Shown: positions 1 through 57,141 of the stretch, piece by piece
Numbering within the stretch: the stretch's first letter is position 1
Layout: each line of letters starts with the position of its first letter
Source of the DNA: Hymenobacter sp. BRD128
Lineage (GTDB): Bacteria; Bacteroidota; Bacteroidia; Cytophagales; Hymenobacteraceae
Reading direction: 5' to 3'
DNA length: 64,000 nt
Assembly: GCF_013256625.1 (NCBI RefSeq)
Contig: NZ_CP053908.1
Span: forward strand, 2,790,001 to 2,854,000
Made by a program: the position numbers and the translations under genes
Notes under the pieces: model-generated
Told to the model about the DNA's origin: nothing
Database searches by the model: none
Seen by the model: the letters and a program-made list of their open reading frames with translations, nothing else

Positions 1-405
1 GTAGTTGACCTCACCGTGTCGGACTCGGTGATGCCCAAAATCACGGCTACGCTCGACGGCCCCAACGGCCTCGGCATCCAGGAGTGCGCCCAGGTGACGC
101 GCCGCCTCAACCGCGGCCTCGAAGAGGCCTACGGCGAAGACGCCGCTTATTCGCTCGAAGTGACCTCGCCCGGCGCCGACCAGCCCCTCACCGACCCGCG
201 CCAGTACCAGCGCCACGTGGGCCGCAGCCTGGCCCTCAAGCTAGCCGATGGCACCGAGAAAACTGGTCCGCTCACTGCCGTTACGCCCGAAGGCATTGAG
301 CTGGAAGAAGTTATCAAAATAAAAACCAAGAAAACCACCCTACCCGCCGTCTTTATTCCTTTCGGGGACATAAAAGAGGCGACAGTTGTTATTTCTTTCA
401 AGTAG
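1..405 (+). CDS. rimP: Ribosome maturation factor RimP (5' truncated by window edge)
   Basis: RimP acts in the cytoplasm in maturation of the 30S ribosomal subunit. The frame is open from base 1 (VVDLTVSD...), so the real start lies upstream and about 134 C-terminal residues are visible. The segment PNGLGIQECAQVTRRLNRGL followed by LEVTSPGADQPL is the typical RimP core (the family has VSSPGLDRPL here), then comes the C-terminal SH3-like barrel. The GTG at position 16 is internal, not the start. The next genes are nusA and infB, the order conserved in most bacteria, which supports the call strongly. A dispersed repeat starts 1 nt after the TAG stop. Confidence 0.93.
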   Translation, partial: VVDLTVSDSVMPKITATLDGPNGLGIQECAQVTRRLNRGLEEAYGEDAAYSLEVTSPGADQPLTDPRQYQRHVGRSLALKLADGTEKTGPLTAVTPEGIELEEVIKIKTKKTTLPAVFIPFGDIKEATVVISFK

Positions 406-406
406 A

Positions 407-480
407 CCGCAGATTAGCTGCGCTGAACTTCGTTTCAAACGGATTTAACGAAGTTCGCGGATGCGCCCGCTGAAGCGGGC
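407..480 (+). repeat. CCGCAGATTAGC repeat, copy 1, with GCCCGC/GCGGGC hairpin
   Basis: It begins CCGCAGATTAGCTG directly after the rimP stop and shares the ACTTCG..CAAACGG..AACG pattern with the two copies around the infB terminator (5157-5218 and 5321-5382), but is more diverged. It ends in a perfect GCCCGC-TGAA-GCGGGC hairpin (465-480) that could act as a 3' processing or termination structure. Confidence 0.6.
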
Positions 481-532
481 TAACTATGCAAACAGTTGTT
501 TTAGACGTTTTTACGCTTTTACTTAATCTTTC

Positions 533-1924
533 ATGGCTAAAAAAGTCACCCCTAGCCCGCAGGAAGTCGCCGCCGCGCAGGCCGACCTAAATGCCCGGAT
601 GCTCATCGAGAACTTCCAGGAGTTTGCCAAGAGCCGCAACATCGACCGGCCCACGATGATGTCGATTCTGGACGACGTGTTTCGGACGATGATTCGCAAG
701 AAGTTTGAGGACGACTCGAACTTCGACGTAATCGTCAACCCTGACAATGGCGACCTCGAAATCTGGCGCAACCGCGAAATCGTGGACGACAACTCGGAGG
801 ATATCTGGGACCTGGACAAGATTCCGCTGGCTGAGGCGCAGAAAATTGAGCCTGATTTTGAGATTGGCGAGTCGGTAGCCGAGCCGATTAAGATTGACGA
901 CTTTGGCCGCCGCGCCGTGCTGCTAGCCCGCCAAACGCTGATTCAGCGCGTGAAGGACATGGAGCGCGACAACTTGTATCAGAAATACAAGGACTTGGTG
1001 GGTGAAATCATCACCGGCGAGGTGTATCAGGTGTGGAGCCGCGAGGCGCTCATCCTGGACAAGGATGAGAATGAGCTGGTGCTGCCCAAGAGCGAGCAAA
1101 TCCCGAAGGACCGCTACCGCAAGGGTGATACGGTGCGCGCCGTGGTGCACCGCGTAGATGTGGTAAATGGCTCACCAAAGGTTATCCTGAGCCGCGCCGC
1201 GCCCGCCTTTTTGGAGCGCTTGTTTGAGCAGGAAGTACCCGAGATTTACGATGGCCTCATCAGCATCAAAAATGTGGTGCGCGAGCCCGGCGAGCGCGCC
1301 AAGGTAGCCGTGGAAAGCTACGACGAGCGCATCGACCCGGTGGGCGCCTGCGTGGGTATGAAAGGCAGCCGCATTCACCCAGTAGTGCGCGAGCTGATGA
1401 ACGAGAACATCGACATCATCAACTACACCGACAACCTGGAGTTATTCATCTCGCGGGCTTTGTCGCCGGCTAAGGTTGGCTCGATGAAAATCAGTGAACA
1501 AACCGGCCGGGTTTCCGTGTTTATGAAGCCAGACCAGGTGAGCCTGGCCATCGGCCGGGGCGGCGCCAACATCAAGCTGGCTAGCCGCTTGGTGGGCATG
1601 GAAATCGACGTCTTCCGCGAAGCTACCGACTATGAAGAAGACATCGCCCTCGACGAGTTCACCGATGAGATTGAGCCTTGGGTAATTGCCGAGCTTAAGA
1701 AAATCGGCCTTGACACCGGCCGCGCCGTGCTGGCCGTGAAAAAGGACGACATCGTGCGCCGCACCGAGCTGGAAGAAGAAACGGTAGACGATGTGTACCG
1801 CGTCATCCGCCAGGAATTTGCCGACGACGACGACCTGCCAACCGAGGCCGGGGCTGCGGCACCTAGCCCGACACCCACGCCGGCCGCCAACGCCGACACC
1901 GACAGCGCCCCGGCCGCCCAATGA
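533..1924 (+). CDS. nusA: Transcription termination/antitermination protein NusA
   Basis: NusA binds RNA polymerase and nascent RNA and controls pausing, termination and antitermination. The 463-residue product has the N-terminal polymerase-binding domain (about 1-130, NARMLIENFQEFAKSRNIDR), an S1 domain (about 135-205, VGEIITGEVYQVW) and two KH domains (GACVGMKGSRIHPVVREL and LAIGRGGANIKLASRLVG). The C-terminus is a short acidic stretch followed by an Ala/Pro-rich tail. Start ATG 533 gives a normal NusA N-terminus. It sits between rimP and infB, its usual place. The tail is low complexity and unlikely to be folded. Confidence 0.97.
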   Translation: MAKKVTPSPQEVAAAQADLNARMLIENFQEFAKSRNIDRPTMMSILDDVFRTMIRKKFEDDSNFDVIVNPDNGDLEIWRNREIVDDNSEDIWDLDKIPLAEAQKIEPDFEIGESVAEPIKIDDFGRRAVLLARQTLIQRVKDMERDNLYQKYKDLVGEIITGEVYQVWSREALILDKDENELVLPKSEQIPKDRYRKGDTVRAVVHRVDVVNGSPKVILSRAAPAFLERLFEQEVPEIYDGLISIKNVVREPGERAKVAVESYDERIDPVGACVGMKGSRIHPVVRELMNENIDIINYTDNLELFISRALSPAKVGSMKISEQTGRVSVFMKPDQVSLAIGRGGANIKLASRLVGMEIDVFREATDYEEDIALDEFTDEIEPWVIAELKKIGLDTGRAVLAVKKDDIVRRTELEEETVDDVYRVIRQEFADDDDLPTEAGAAAPSPTPTPAANADTDSAPAAQ

Positions 1925-1957
1925 GGGCCGGGGCCAACCGCCAGCAAGTAAGTTATT

Positions 1958-1981
1958 AAATCAAGCCAGTAGGCTTGATTT
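1958..1981 (+). terminator. Hairpin downstream of nusA
   Basis: Perfect 10-bp stem AAATCAAGCC-AGTA-GGCTTGATTT, 34 nt after the nusA stop and upstream of the infB promoter box. There is no strong U run, so it may be an attenuating or processing hairpin rather than a full terminator. Confidence 0.45.
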
Positions 1982-2007
1982 ATAGCCTGCTGGCCAGATT
2001 TAATCTT

Positions 2008-2015
2008 TACCTTTG
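2008..2015 (+). promoter_or_regulatory. Bacteroidota -7 box TACCTTTG upstream of infB
   Basis: TACCTTTG matches the phylum's TAnnTTTG consensus and lies 33 nt before the infB ATG. The TTG at 2013 is part of this box, which argues against its use as an alternative start codon. No well-spaced -33 TTG is visible. Confidence 0.55.
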
Positions 2016-2048
2016 CACCCTGAACGTATTCGTTCGCGACTTATTAGA

Positions 2049-5000
2049 ATGGCGGAAGCAACCCCGAAACGGCTATTACAGGCGGCCAAAGACCTGAACA
2101 TTGGCATTGACCGGGCCGTTGAGGCCCTTTCCCGCAGAGGGATTGCGGTAGAAAACAAGCCTACTACCAAGCTCACCGGCGAGCAGGTAAGCCTGTTGGA
2201 AAAAGAATTTGCGGCTTCGGCCCAGGATAAGCAGGAGGCCCAGCGCCACACCCAGGCCCGGCGCCAGAGCGAGCTGAATGCCCAGGCCCAGGCGGCAGTG
2301 GCTAAACCTGCCCCGACCCCGGCTCCTGTTCCCAAACCAGCGCCGGTGGCTAGCCCACTAACGGCACCCGTGTCGGCACCAGCACCTATCGCTGCTCCGG
2401 TGGCCGCTGCACCGGCACCAGCGCCCATTGTAGCAGCCCCTGCTGCTCAGCCGGCTTTAGCCCCGACCGAAGCGCCTAAGGCTCCGGGCCTCAAGGTGCT
2501 AGGCAAAATTGAGCTCGACAGCAAAGGCCGCGTTATTCCGGCGCGGCCCGCGACGCCCCCGGCTGCTACGCCGACTCCGGTGGCGCCCGCCGCGCCCACG
2601 CCAGTTGCGGAAGTAAAACCAGCACCGACTCCGGCGCCTCAGCCAGTAGCGGCACCCCAGCCAGCCCCGGTAGTAGTAGCCCCAGCAGCCCCGGTCGTTT
2701 CGACCCCGGTGGCAACGCCCGCGCCTACCCCGGCTCCCGCACCAGCTGCTCCGACTGCCCCACTTGTCTCGGCTCCCGTAGCTACTGCGGCCCCCATTTC
2801 CCCGGCACCAGCAGCTTCAGCTGCTCCTGATGCCCCCGCGGGCGAAGAAGGCACCATTGTGGCTAAAGCCGACCAACTGAAAGGCCTCACGGTACTCGGC
2901 AAGATTCAACTGCCGGTTGATTCGAGCCGCCGTGGGCCGGGTGGTGGCCGCGGGCCGCGCCCGGTGGCCTCGTCCGACGTGCGTAAGAGCGGCGTGGGCA
3001 GTGCCAACCAGAAGAAGCGCCAGCGCCTGCCGGCTCCCGGCCAGCCGGGCGGCGGTGGCGCCAGCACCGGTACCAACACCGGCCAGGGCGGCGGCTACCA
3101 GGGCAATCGCCCGGCGGGTGGTCCAGGCCAGGGTGGCAACCGCCCCGGCGGGCCCGGCCAAGGCGGCACCCGCCCCGGCCAGGGCACCCGCCCCGGCCAG
3201 AGCAACAACCGCCCGGCTACGCCGCAGGTACCGCTCACGCCCGAGCAGAACGACAAGCAGATTCAGGAGCAAATCAAGGCTACGCTAGCGAAGCTCAGCG
3301 GCGGCAAAACCAACGCCGCTGCCAACCGCGCCAAGTATCGCCGCGACAAGCGGGGCATGGCTGCCGAAGAGCGCGAAGCCCTGCGCGCCCAGAACGAACT
3401 GGATGCCAAGACCCTCAAGCTCACCGAGTTCATTTCGGCCAACGACCTCGCGTCGCTGATGGATGTGAACGTGAACGAGGTAATCAAGGTGTGCTTGGGC
3501 ATGGGCATGTTCGTGTCCATCAACCAGCGCCTCGATGCCGAAGCCATCACGGTGATTGCCGACGAGTTTGGCTATGATGTCGAATTCCTCTCGGCCGAGG
3601 AAGACGAGGAGCCCATCGACATGAGTGATGCGCCCGAGGACCTTCAGCCCCGCGCGCCCATCGTGACCATCATGGGCCACGTCGACCACGGCAAAACGTC
3701 GCTGCTTGACTACATCCGCGAGGCTAGCGTAGCCAAGGGCGAGGCTGGTGGTATTACCCAGCACATTGGCGCCTATGAGGTAAAGACCAAATCGGGCAAC
3801 CCGATTACTTTCCTCGATACGCCGGGTCACGAAGCCTTTACGGCCATGCGCGCCCGTGGTGCCAAGGTGACGGACATTGCCATTATCGTAATCGCGGCCG
3901 ACGACTCGGTGATGCCCCAGACCAAGGAGGCTATCAACCACGCCCAGGCGGCGGGCGTGCCGATTATTATTGCCATCAACAAGGTAGACAAGCCGCATTC
4001 CAACCCGGAGAAAATCCGCGAAGAGCTTTCGCAGATGAACATTCTGGTGGAAGAATGGGGTGGCAAGTATCAGAGCCAGGAAGTTTCGGCTAAGTCGGGC
4101 CTGGGTGTAGATGACTTGCTGGAGAAAATTCTGCTCGAAGCGGAGTTGCTTGACCTGCACGCCAACCCTAATCGTAACGCGATTGGGACGGTTATCGAAG
4201 CCGAGCTGGACAAAGGCCGGGGCTACGTAACTACCGTGCTGGTGCAAACCGGCACGCTGAACGTGGGCGACATCGTACTGGCCGGCCCGCACTACGGCCG
4301 CGTGAAGGCCATGACCGACTACCGCGGCAAGAAGAAGAAGCTAGCCGGCCCCGCCACGCCGGTACAGGTGCTGGGCCTCACGGGCGCCCCGCAGGCCGGC
4401 GACCGCATCCAGGTAATGGAAACGGAGCGCGAAGCCCGCGAACTGGCCACCCAGCGCCAGCAACTGGCCCGTGAGCAAAGCATCCGCACCAAGAAGCACA
4501 TCACGCTCGACGAGATTGGTCGCCGTCTGGCTATCGGCTCGTTCAAGGAGCTGAATATCCTGGTGAAAGGTGACGTGGACGGCTCGGTAGAAGCCCTCTC
4601 CGACTCGCTGCTGAAGCTGAGCACGCCCGAGGTGAAGGTGAATATCCTGAGCAAAGGCGTGGGTGCCATTTCGGAAAGCGACGTGCTGCTAGCCTCGGCT
4701 TCCGACGCCATCATCATCGGCTTCCAGGTTCGCCCCTCGCAGAGCGCCCGCAAACTGGCTGAGCAAGAGCAAATTGACGTGCGTTTGTACTCGATTATCT
4801 ACAACGCCATCAACGAGGTGAAAGACGCGATGGAGGGCATGCTGGCCCCCACCCTGCACGAAGTAGTGGTGGCCAACGCCGAAGTGCGCCAAGTGTTCAA
4901 CATCACCAAGGTGGGCACTATCGGTGGCTGCATGGTGACGGACGGCACGTTTACCCGCAAAACCAAGGTGCGCGTAGTGCGCAACGGCATCGTGCAATAC

Positions 5001-5156
5001 ACCGGCGACATTCAGGACCTCAAGCGCTTCAAGGACGATGTGTCGGAAGTGCGCCAGGGCTACGAATGCGGTATCTCGGTGAAGAACTTCAACGACCTGC
5101 AGGAAGGCGACAACATCGAAGGCTTCGAAGAACAGGAAATCAAGCGCAAGCTGTAA
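2049..5156 (+). CDS. infB: Translation initiation factor IF-2
   Basis: IF-2 is the GTPase that brings initiator tRNA to the 30S subunit and promotes subunit joining. About 1035 residues. The N-terminal IF2_N helical domain starts [21 protein letters not shown] long Ala/Pro-rich linker (about 80-280) and a Gly/Arg/Gln-rich stretch (about 300-400) follow, then the conserved core with G1 [13 protein letters not shown]3 DTPGHEAF and G4 INKVDKP, then domains II-IV ending EEQEIKRKL. The start is ATG 2049, not the in-frame TTG 2013 that lies inside the promoter box. The linker is long even for IF-2 but is typical of high-GC Bacteroidota. A strong terminator follows. Confidence 0.97.
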
Positions 5157-5382
5157 CCGCAGATTAGCTGGGCTGCACTTCGCTGCAAACGGCTTGAACG
5201 GATACGCTTGCTGCGCAAACTGGCTGTTTTTTGAATTGAATAACTAAAAAGGCCACCCTGCGGGGTGGCCTTTTTAGTTACAGTTATAAAATAGACAATG
5301 ATGACGCTAACGTAGTTTGCTTGCGCAGCAAGCGCATCCGTTCAAGCCATTTGCAGCGAAGTGCAGCCCAGCTAATCTGCGG
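5157..5382. repeat. 62-bp inverted repeat pair flanking the infB terminator
   Basis: Arms 5157-5218 and 5321-5382 are inverted copies identical at 60 of 62 positions. The outer ends read CCGCAGATTAGCTGGGCTGC. The left arm starts at the base after the infB TAA. The right arm ends 1 nt before the stop of the minus-strand gene at 5384. A diverged third copy follows rimP (407-480). The central 102 bp carry the infB terminator. Confidence 0.85.
5241..5280 (+). terminator. Strong intrinsic terminator of infB (bidirectional)
   Basis: Perfect 18-bp stem TAACTAAAAAGGCCACCC with loop TGCG and the complementary arm, giving GC-rich stem and T5 on either strand. It probably also serves the minus-strand gene at 5384-5815, which converges on it. 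Confidence 0.9.
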
Positions 5383-5383
5383 T

Positions 5384-5815
5384 TTAGAAGAGGAGGAATT
5401 TCTTTTTTCGGCTGCGGTCGTGCACGAGCGGCTTGCCCTTAGTACGGCCGCCCATCACCACGCGGCGCGATACGCCGCGCTCCTGCTCCTGGCCCGGCAG
5501 CGCCCGAAATTTGCGCACGGTAAAAGAACCGCCGGCTTTATCCATCTGGCGGAAGGGGCCGCTCCGCTCAGCACCAAAGCTGGTGTTGCCGGTGCGGGCT
5601 TCCAGCACCTGCAATTGCTGGTCGCGGGCGGCGTCTTCGGGGCTCATCTGCTGCTGACGTCGGGTGCGGACATTGTCTGGTGCGCCCGGAGCGGCGGAGC
5701 GCGCCGGGCTGCCCGGCGCCGGAAAATCGGGCGCGGTAGTTTGTGCCTGAGCGACCGTAGCAGTGAGCAAAAAAGCCGCGAAGGCTAGCGGAGTGGCAAG
5801 AAACAGTTTTTTCAC
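5384..5815 (-). CDS. Small secreted protein of unknown function
   Basis: A 143-residue protein with a clear Sec signal peptide (MKKLFLATPLAFAAFLLTAT then VAQAQ, cleavage likely after AQA). The mature part is Pro/Ala/Arg/Gln-rich, with QQQMSPEDAARDQQLQVLEA in the middle and a very basic C-terminus (RSRKKKFLLF). No family was recognised. The start is GTG at 5815. It converges with infB and shares the terminator region; its stop codon touches the right arm of the 62-bp repeat. Probably periplasmic. A real gene is likely because of the well-formed signal peptide, but the function is unknown. Confidence 0.6.
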   Translation of the reverse strand: MKKLFLATPLAFAAFLLTATVAQAQTTAPDFPAPGSPARSAAPGAPDNVRTRRQQQMSPEDAARDQQLQVLEARTGNTSFGAERSGPFRQMDKAGGSFTVRKFRALPGQEQERGVSRRVVMGGRTKGKPLVHDRSRKKKFLLF

Positions 5816-5909
5816 GGGTCGAAGCTACGGGAGAACGGTAAGCAAGAAGCGGTAAACCCGAAATGTCGGCTCCCCGGCAGAAGTTCCGGCCAGCCTGGCT
5901 AGCCCAGCG

Positions 5910-6341
5910 CTAGGCGCGGGTGCGCAGAGCATCGCGAATTTCGGCGAGTAGCTCCTGGTCGCGGGTAATAGCCGGAGCAGCAGGCTCTTTCACTTCTACC
6001 ACGGTGGGCTTTTTGAAGCGGTTCGCCAGCTTCACGACCCAGAAGATGACCAAGGCGATAATGAGAAAATAAATGATGGCATTAATAAAATTGCCATAGC
6101 TTACCACGGCGGCTTTGGCATCCTGCGCCGCCTTCAAGGTTTCGTAGTGCTGCCCATTAAGCGCAAAGAACTTCTCCTTGAAATCAATGCCGCTAGTGAA
6201 TACGCTCAGAATTGGCATAATAATGTCGTCGGTCAGCGACGACACGATTTTGCCAAACGCCCCGCCAATAATGACGCCCACGGCCAGGTCGAGTACATTG
6301 CCTTTCGAGATAAACTCCTTGAATTCGGAAACGAAGCTCAT
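5910..6341 (-). CDS. mscL: Large-conductance mechanosensitive channel MscL
   Basis: MscL is an inner-membrane pentameric channel that opens under high membrane tension to release solutes during osmotic downshock. The 143-residue length is normal for the family. The N-terminal amphipathic helix and TM1 read EFKEFISKGNVLDLAVGVII then GGAFGKIVSSLTDDIIMP. A periplasmic loop (about 50-80) follows, then TM2 (AIIYFLIIALVIFWVVKLAN) and a charged cytoplasmic helix ending EIRDALRTRA. The frame extends upstream to 6599, but only ATG 6341 gives the canonical N-terminus. A MscS-family channel is encoded at 57.8 kb. Confidence 0.96.
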   Translation of the reverse strand: MSFVSEFKEFISKGNVLDLAVGVIIGGAFGKIVSSLTDDIIMPILSVFTSGIDFKEKFFALNGQHYETLKAAQDAKAAVVSYGNFINAIIYFLIIALVIFWVVKLANRFKKPTVVEVKEPAAPAITRDQELLAEIRDALRTRA

Positions 6342-25627: not shown

Positions 25628-25727
25628 GAACGTCATGCTGAACTTGTCAAAGCATCTTGCTCGAATCGTTGGGGTTGTACCTCTGGCGGCGCGAGCAAGA
25701 TGCTTCGGCAAGCTCAGCATGACGTTC
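25628..25727. repeat. MITE-like palindromic element, copy 1
   Basis: A 100-bp element with 36-bp terminal inverted repeats (25628-25663 and 25692-25727, 33 of 36 identical) starting GAACGTCATGCTGA. The 28-bp core AATCGTTGGGGTTGTACC.. is similar to the reverse complement of the core of the copy at 57001-57104, so the two are the same element in opposite orientations. Confidence 0.8.
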
Positions 25728-56978: not shown

Positions 56979-57000
56979 TTTTGCCGCTGGCATGACTCCT

Positions 57001-57104
57001 AGAACGTCATGCTGAGCTTGCCGAAGCATCTTGCTCGCGCCGCCAGGGATACTACACCCTCACGATTCGGGCGAGATGCTTCGGCAAGCTCAGCATGACG
57101 TTCT
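57001..57104. repeat. MITE-like palindromic element, copy 2
   Basis: A 104-bp element with 37-bp inverted ends (57001-57037 and 57068-57104, 35 of 37 identical) starting AGAACGTCATGCTGAGCTTG. The core, read in reverse complement, matches the core of the 25628-25727 copy. It lies between the sigma factor gene and rsmG. Confidence 0.85.
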
Positions 57105-57141
57105 ATTTTTTTAGCCTTCCCTGTTTCAACTTGCCTTTCGC

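Follow-up and report, generated by a model that had tools for sequence, protein, structure and literature searches.

Intergenic inverted repeats flush with reading-frame boundaries in Hymenobacter as probable terminal arms of an element with a GxxExxY nuclease gene

REPINs and REP-RAYT systems (PMC3116915, PMC3733652) consist of short inverted pairs that are scattered between genes, vary in their loops, form several subfamilies per genome and are accompanied by one or a few partner genes. The repeats analysed here are alike in all these aspects, and some of their arms even possess a GTAG-type hairpin; they are unlike in that the arms are degenerate, 40-85 nt long and built of 9-11-nt words, that their ends adjoin coding sequence and that the partner is a PD-(D/E)XK nuclease encoded within the arms and not a Y1 transposase. 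Equally, MITEs share terminal inverted repeats between gene-less and gene-carrying copies, as is seen here when the arm downstream of rimP is compared with loci L242 and L351 and in the use of the same word classes. On the other hand, the enclosed gene here belongs to PDDEXK_3/GxxExxY and is not a transposase, the ends lie at reading-frame boundaries and no target-site duplication was recognised in a filled/empty pair of sites. Homing endonuclease systems provide a third likeness in the proposed nuclease-driven copying into related sites, although the sites are intergenic here and cleavage and homing are proposed only. Finally, the gene enclosed in relatives of the repeat is, by the curated cut-off, a member of the GxxExxY (TIGR04256)/PDDEXK_3 (PF13366) family. 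The layout resembles that of REPIN/RAYT and MITE systems, but the family fails the tests for a transposase.

The window, a stretch of 64,000 nucleotides from Hymenobacter sp. BRD128, harbours copies of the repeat at infB and at rimP, with the following features (window positions).

403..405, plus strand: stop codon TAG of rimP, adjoined by the single-arm copy
406..489, plus strand: single-arm copy 3' of the rimP stop, which aligns to the GxxExxY-element arms of L242/L351 except for a 20-21 nt insertion
465..480, plus strand: mini-hairpin GCCCGCTGAAGCGGGC, the GTAG-REP-like inner end of the rimP copy by sequence, a module shared with REP-type arms
2049..5156, plus strand: infB, stop codon TAA at 5154-5156
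5155..5218, plus strand: left arm of the inverted-repeat unit, starting 0-1 nt past the infB stop and 97% complementary to 5321-5384
5219..5320, no strand: loop between the infB arms, containing by sequence the infB terminator; other species have similar terminators here
5242..5279, plus strand: bidirectional intrinsic terminator AACTAAAAAGGCCACCC-TGCG-GGGTGGCCTTTTTAGTT, the hairpin apex, predicted from sequence and fold
5321..5384, minus strand: right arm of the infB unit, whose outer end adjoins the stop of the minus-strand gene
5384..5815, minus strand: convergent gene, whose stop (TTA, 5384-5386) adjoins the right arm

The repeat CCGCAGATTAGC begins at 5157 with the next base after the infB TAA, its inverted copy ends at 5382, one base short of the stop of the minus-strand gene, and at rimP the TAG is followed by A406 and then by CCGCAGATTAGC from 407, such that the three positions are as a preliminary description of this DNA had given them. 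The two infB copies are identical in 60 of 62 nt (97%), inverted and 102 nt apart, while the rimP copy shows 76-78% identity to either of them. The preliminary description had considered the infB repeats as two separate copies inverted about the terminator; the identity and the inversion hold, but together they form a single gene-less unit of two inverted arms with the infB terminator between them, which rules out two independent copies. In folding predictions, positions 5150-5390 (241 nt) form one hairpin with -167.7 kcal/mol and a z of -22; no Rfam family reached its gathering score in window positions 1-6000. That the element brought its own terminator to infB is unlikely, as other species with and without arms have similar terminators there. 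Without mismatches, the 12-mer occurs at three places in the window, all of them at the infB and rimP copies, and five times in the 4.88-Mb genome, to which a BLAST search of the genome added a few diverged copies.

Within the genus, a search pattern describing the outer end of the arm matched in 61 of 61 Hymenobacter genomes (1-229 matches each) versus one match overall for the control, so the repeat family is not due to chance. Many of the family places listed in these genomes are inverted pairs with their outer ends pointing outward, and several repeat subfamilies can be found side by side in a single genome. The arm word is CRCRGATT in the subfamily of the window and CRCAGAG in most other subfamilies. 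Arms of the same pair have an identity of 0.904, as opposed to 0.876 between an arm and its closest match among the other arms of the genome (p 0.03), which lends only modest support to strong arm-to-arm homogenisation.

In genome G020, a small gene is located between flush arms. Its product is a GxxExxY protein (TIGR04256/PF13366) of the PD-(D/E)XK nuclease family, with the protein of locus L223 scoring 134.6 bits against TIGR04256 at a curated cut-off of 35. PF13366 genes were found in 41 of 61 Hymenobacter genomes and GxxExxY in 73 of 148 sampled Bacteroidota genomes, while a PF13366 search detected no GxxExxY gene in the window's own genome. Inverted arms scoring at least 20 surround GxxExxY in 29 of 30 fetched loci versus 1 of 150 randomly chosen genes of comparable size; in a larger Hymenobacter set, arms enclose the gene in 54 of 56 loci, with one of the two exceptions being cut by a contig end. 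Outside of Hymenobacter, arm scores of at least 20 are much rarer (4 of 30 loci from the phylum and 2 of 8 plasmid loci, one of them a long duplication), but arm words still flank the gene and directly follow a stop-like triplet in several of these loci (L300, L302, L307, L314). The rimP arm of the window can itself be aligned, apart from the insertion, with GxxExxY-element arms from G020 (L242) and G043 (L351). Among 94 proteins, G26xxE29xxY32, D68, E78xK80 and Q92xxxY96 are invariant; D68, E78 and K80 represent the D...ExK signature of PD-(D/E)XK nucleases, and the D, ExK and QxxxY residues resemble those of RecB/Cas4-type nucleases. Sequence and profile searches yielded no meaningful relative in the PDB. 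The papers found to name GxxExxY mention the family in passing, with neither a function nor a link to inverted repeats found there. Equally, searches on the repeat words, stop-codon inverted repeats, GxxExxY and PDDEXK_3 retrieved no description of the association; as most subscription papers lay outside the search, a prior description is possible. On a replicon of Sphingomonas parapaucimobilis (L325), GxxExxY is located between fabD and fabG at distances of 33 and 2 bp, and in Gemmatirosa (L324) a PDDEXK_3-like gene is located between long inverted duplications with terminal GGACTGAAGAAGGACTGAAGAAGG repeats.

The type of arm follows the phylogeny of the nuclease. Mapping the four arm classes onto a 56-protein tree requires four changes (the minimum being three) compared to a mean of 19.9 upon shuffling, with none of 200 shuffles as low, and the CGCAGAT-REP arm class, to which the rimP copy belongs by type, forms one clade (SH-aLRT 98). 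When 38 proteins are added that come from elsewhere in the phylum or are plasmid-encoded in other phyla, arms with GAT words and arms with AG words are separated by two changes (shuffled mean 22.7, 0 of 500 as low), arm types having been assigned by regular expressions and in part by eye, with a few set by eye and seven rows lacking a clear label in this larger set; proteins from Treponema, Fusobacteria and Persicobacter are placed in the GAT clade. As physical linkage alone would give such congruence, the agreement demonstrates one inherited unit and not recognition of the arms by the protein.

The placement of outer ends was assessed in 400 kb from each of four genomes, chosen regardless of the repeat, and in additional targeted stretches elsewhere, with duplicates removed and with gene boundaries from our own gene caller. 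Of 97 stop-facing outer ends, 63 are positioned at -1 to +1 nt from the stop, 84 at -1 to +9 and 93 no more than 15 nt away; restricted to the unselected sample, the figure for -1 to +1 is 13 of 15. Comparison families (GTCATTGCGAGC, GTCATGCTGAGC, GTCATTCCGAGC and CACCCCCnGCCCC) have none of 76 ends at -1 to +1 in the same unselected sample (Fisher p 1.5e-22), their typical distance from the stop being 10-40 nt or more. Placement at 3' ends in a fixed orientation, as the preliminary description had proposed, is thus real, and the random stop distances that would have spoken against it are not observed. Start codons are faced by 52 of 149 ends, 12 of them at -2 to +3 and the others widely scattered, and two outer ends lie inside called genes. 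Among the 84 ends not adjoining the stop of a gene, 38 nevertheless follow a TAA, TAG or TGA, in 30 cases as TCTGA or TCTAA; the stop triplet therefore often belongs to the element end, which, often reading TCTGA, CTAG or CTAA, may be the cause of part of the flushness. Units that carry GxxExxY have both ends at most 15 nt from the neighbouring coding sequence in 42 of 54 cases. Targeting of terminators, also put forward in the preliminary description, had to be dropped, as units are found in gaps without a terminator and next to start codons, and a sister species can have another family or none at the same boundary.

Such differences are seen between the sister species G020 and G005, which were compared pairwise without an outgroup and differ at many boundaries while the coding ends are about 92-98% identical. 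At L242, a GxxExxY unit in G020 is opposed by about 70 unrelated bases in G005, and both species retain EKLMRRL as the C-terminus as well as the neighbouring start codon; in this filled/empty pair the whole gap has been replaced, with no recognisable target-site duplication. A 139-bp unit at L236 compares with a 17-bp remnant of the unit's ends. At L238 (1186) and L235, different families are flush with the same start codon in G020 and G005. At position 4366 of L238 the C-terminus of the gene differs from that at L334 of G005, as the reading frame in G020 enters the element and stops there. At infB, other species have either decayed remnants or arms that differ in sequence and directly adjoin both stops. 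The family that fills the gap up to the shared start codon in G005 (L336, compared with L235 of G020) is another inverted one (GGGGAAATGTGAAAA...TTTTCACCCC).

It is likely, in our judgement, that the repeats constitute the terminal arms of an intergenic inverted-repeat element which is or once was mobile, whose own protein is GxxExxY and whose gene-less copies are moved in trans. A full-length member would consist of an arm, the GxxExxY nuclease gene and the inverted arm, while most members, including those of the window, would be gene-less (arm, short loop, inverted arm) or a single arm. The putative nuclease might recognise the arm words, or the hairpin or cruciform formed by them, and subsequently cut; repair could then copy the unit into a different intergenic site or let it overwrite a copy already present in a homing-like conversion, with gene-less copies mobilised in trans. 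Units would survive where they are harmless and thereby fill the space between reading frames, such that the element ends, often with their own stop triplet, would come to adjoin stop and start codons. Flushness might arise either because the element takes the place of the previous intergenic DNA upon insertion or because, after insertion, the DNA between element end and reading frame is lost; both accounts fit with ends that halt at the 3' ends of coding sequences and keep off many start codons, where promoters are located. Mobility, and a role of the nuclease therein, are inferred: the sister species showed one filled/empty site and several subfamily swaps, and no transposition event was observed. 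As the genome of the window has no GxxExxY gene, the window copies are probably relics. Against the element with its own nuclease speak the scarcity of well-matched arms outside the genus and the genomes, including that of the window, which have copies and no GxxExxY gene; moreover, among mobility proteins a nuclease with no known transposase domain would be unusual.

Alternatively, REPIN-like elements could be mobilised by a REP-associated Y1 (HUH) transposase with GxxExxY as a passenger, as the GTAG-type REP hairpin at the inner end of CGCAGAT arms might indicate. In Hymenobacter genomes, with kinship ignored, the number of repeat copies indeed correlates with the number of Y1_Tnp genes (rho 0.47), but the partial rank correlation given GxxExxY is just 0.19, while for GxxExxY the correlation amounts to 0.69 (p 8.5e-10) and to 0.59 given Y1; an independent-pairs test of the link found only five pairs and has no power. 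Four genomes have at least 20 copies and yet no GxxExxY gene, and Y1_Tnp genes are absent from five genomes that have 34-52 copies; in the genome of the window, a Y1 (RAYT) transposase is represented by a partial match below the family cut-off only. As, furthermore, the REP hairpin is missing from CGGATT-type arms and GxxExxY is enclosed by arms whose type tracks its tree, mobilisation by Y1 is considered unlikely.

The view of the preliminary description, a 3'-UTR or termination element under selection in which a long hairpin insulates convergent genes or protects mRNA ends, would accommodate the ends flush with stops, the folding of a whole gap into one hairpin and the general preponderance of inverted repeats in convergent over divergent gaps (15 of 37 versus 1 of 39 in G051). 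Start codons are, however, also faced and abutted by ends, many units contain the nuclease gene and fill whole gaps between two genes, the sequence differs by subfamily, and sister species lack the unit or possess another family at the boundary, such that a specifically 3'-UTR function does not hold and selection for it is rather improbable as the explanation.

Uptake-signal-like sequences spread by transformation, as the DUS in Neisseria, would equally appear as inverted pairs around terminators in many copies and species-specific dialects, but are most improbable as there is no fixed short word in arms that are 40-85 nt long, degenerate and enclose a gene, and the pattern used finds 1-229 copies. 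Genomic copy numbers of uptake sequences are far higher than these.

If GxxExxY indeed belongs to the repeats, a common kind of bacterial intergenic repeat gains a partner gene and hence a testable mechanism. GxxExxY proteins, present in roughly every second Bacteroidota genome sampled and with no known function, would gain a possible role. It is uncommon for ends to lie exactly at frame boundaries, and one may ask how an element can replace intergenic DNA without harm to genes; in addition, protein C-termini may be edited by elements in which a stop codon is provided or retained by the end. A more far-reaching proposal, which we put forward tentatively, is that GxxExxY elements constitute an undescribed cross-phylum class of mobile DNA with a PD-(D/E)XK nuclease as sole gene, clade-specific arm words and an insertion that replaces intergenic DNA up to the reading frames. 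Such a class could, if true, lie behind many of the CACAGAG/CACGGATT repeats that are common in the intergenic DNA of bacteria.

Other inverted families occur alongside. In the window, two inverted pairs of a dispersed family, AACGTCATGCTGAGCTTGnCGAAGCATCTTGCTCG, are found at 25628-25727 and 56999-57106 in tandem gaps, and relatives were seen in each of the four genomes sampled, where most are 12-40 nt away from a stop. Hymenobacter gaps (L093-L172) are filled by many unrelated inverted word families (GTCATTGCGAGC, CACCCCCGGCCCC, GTAGCGCGAACTT, CAATGAGCAATGAAC, GTTCCTGGTTTC and AATGTGCTGATGTG), most strongly so in G051, with one of them in 15 of 37 convergent gaps.
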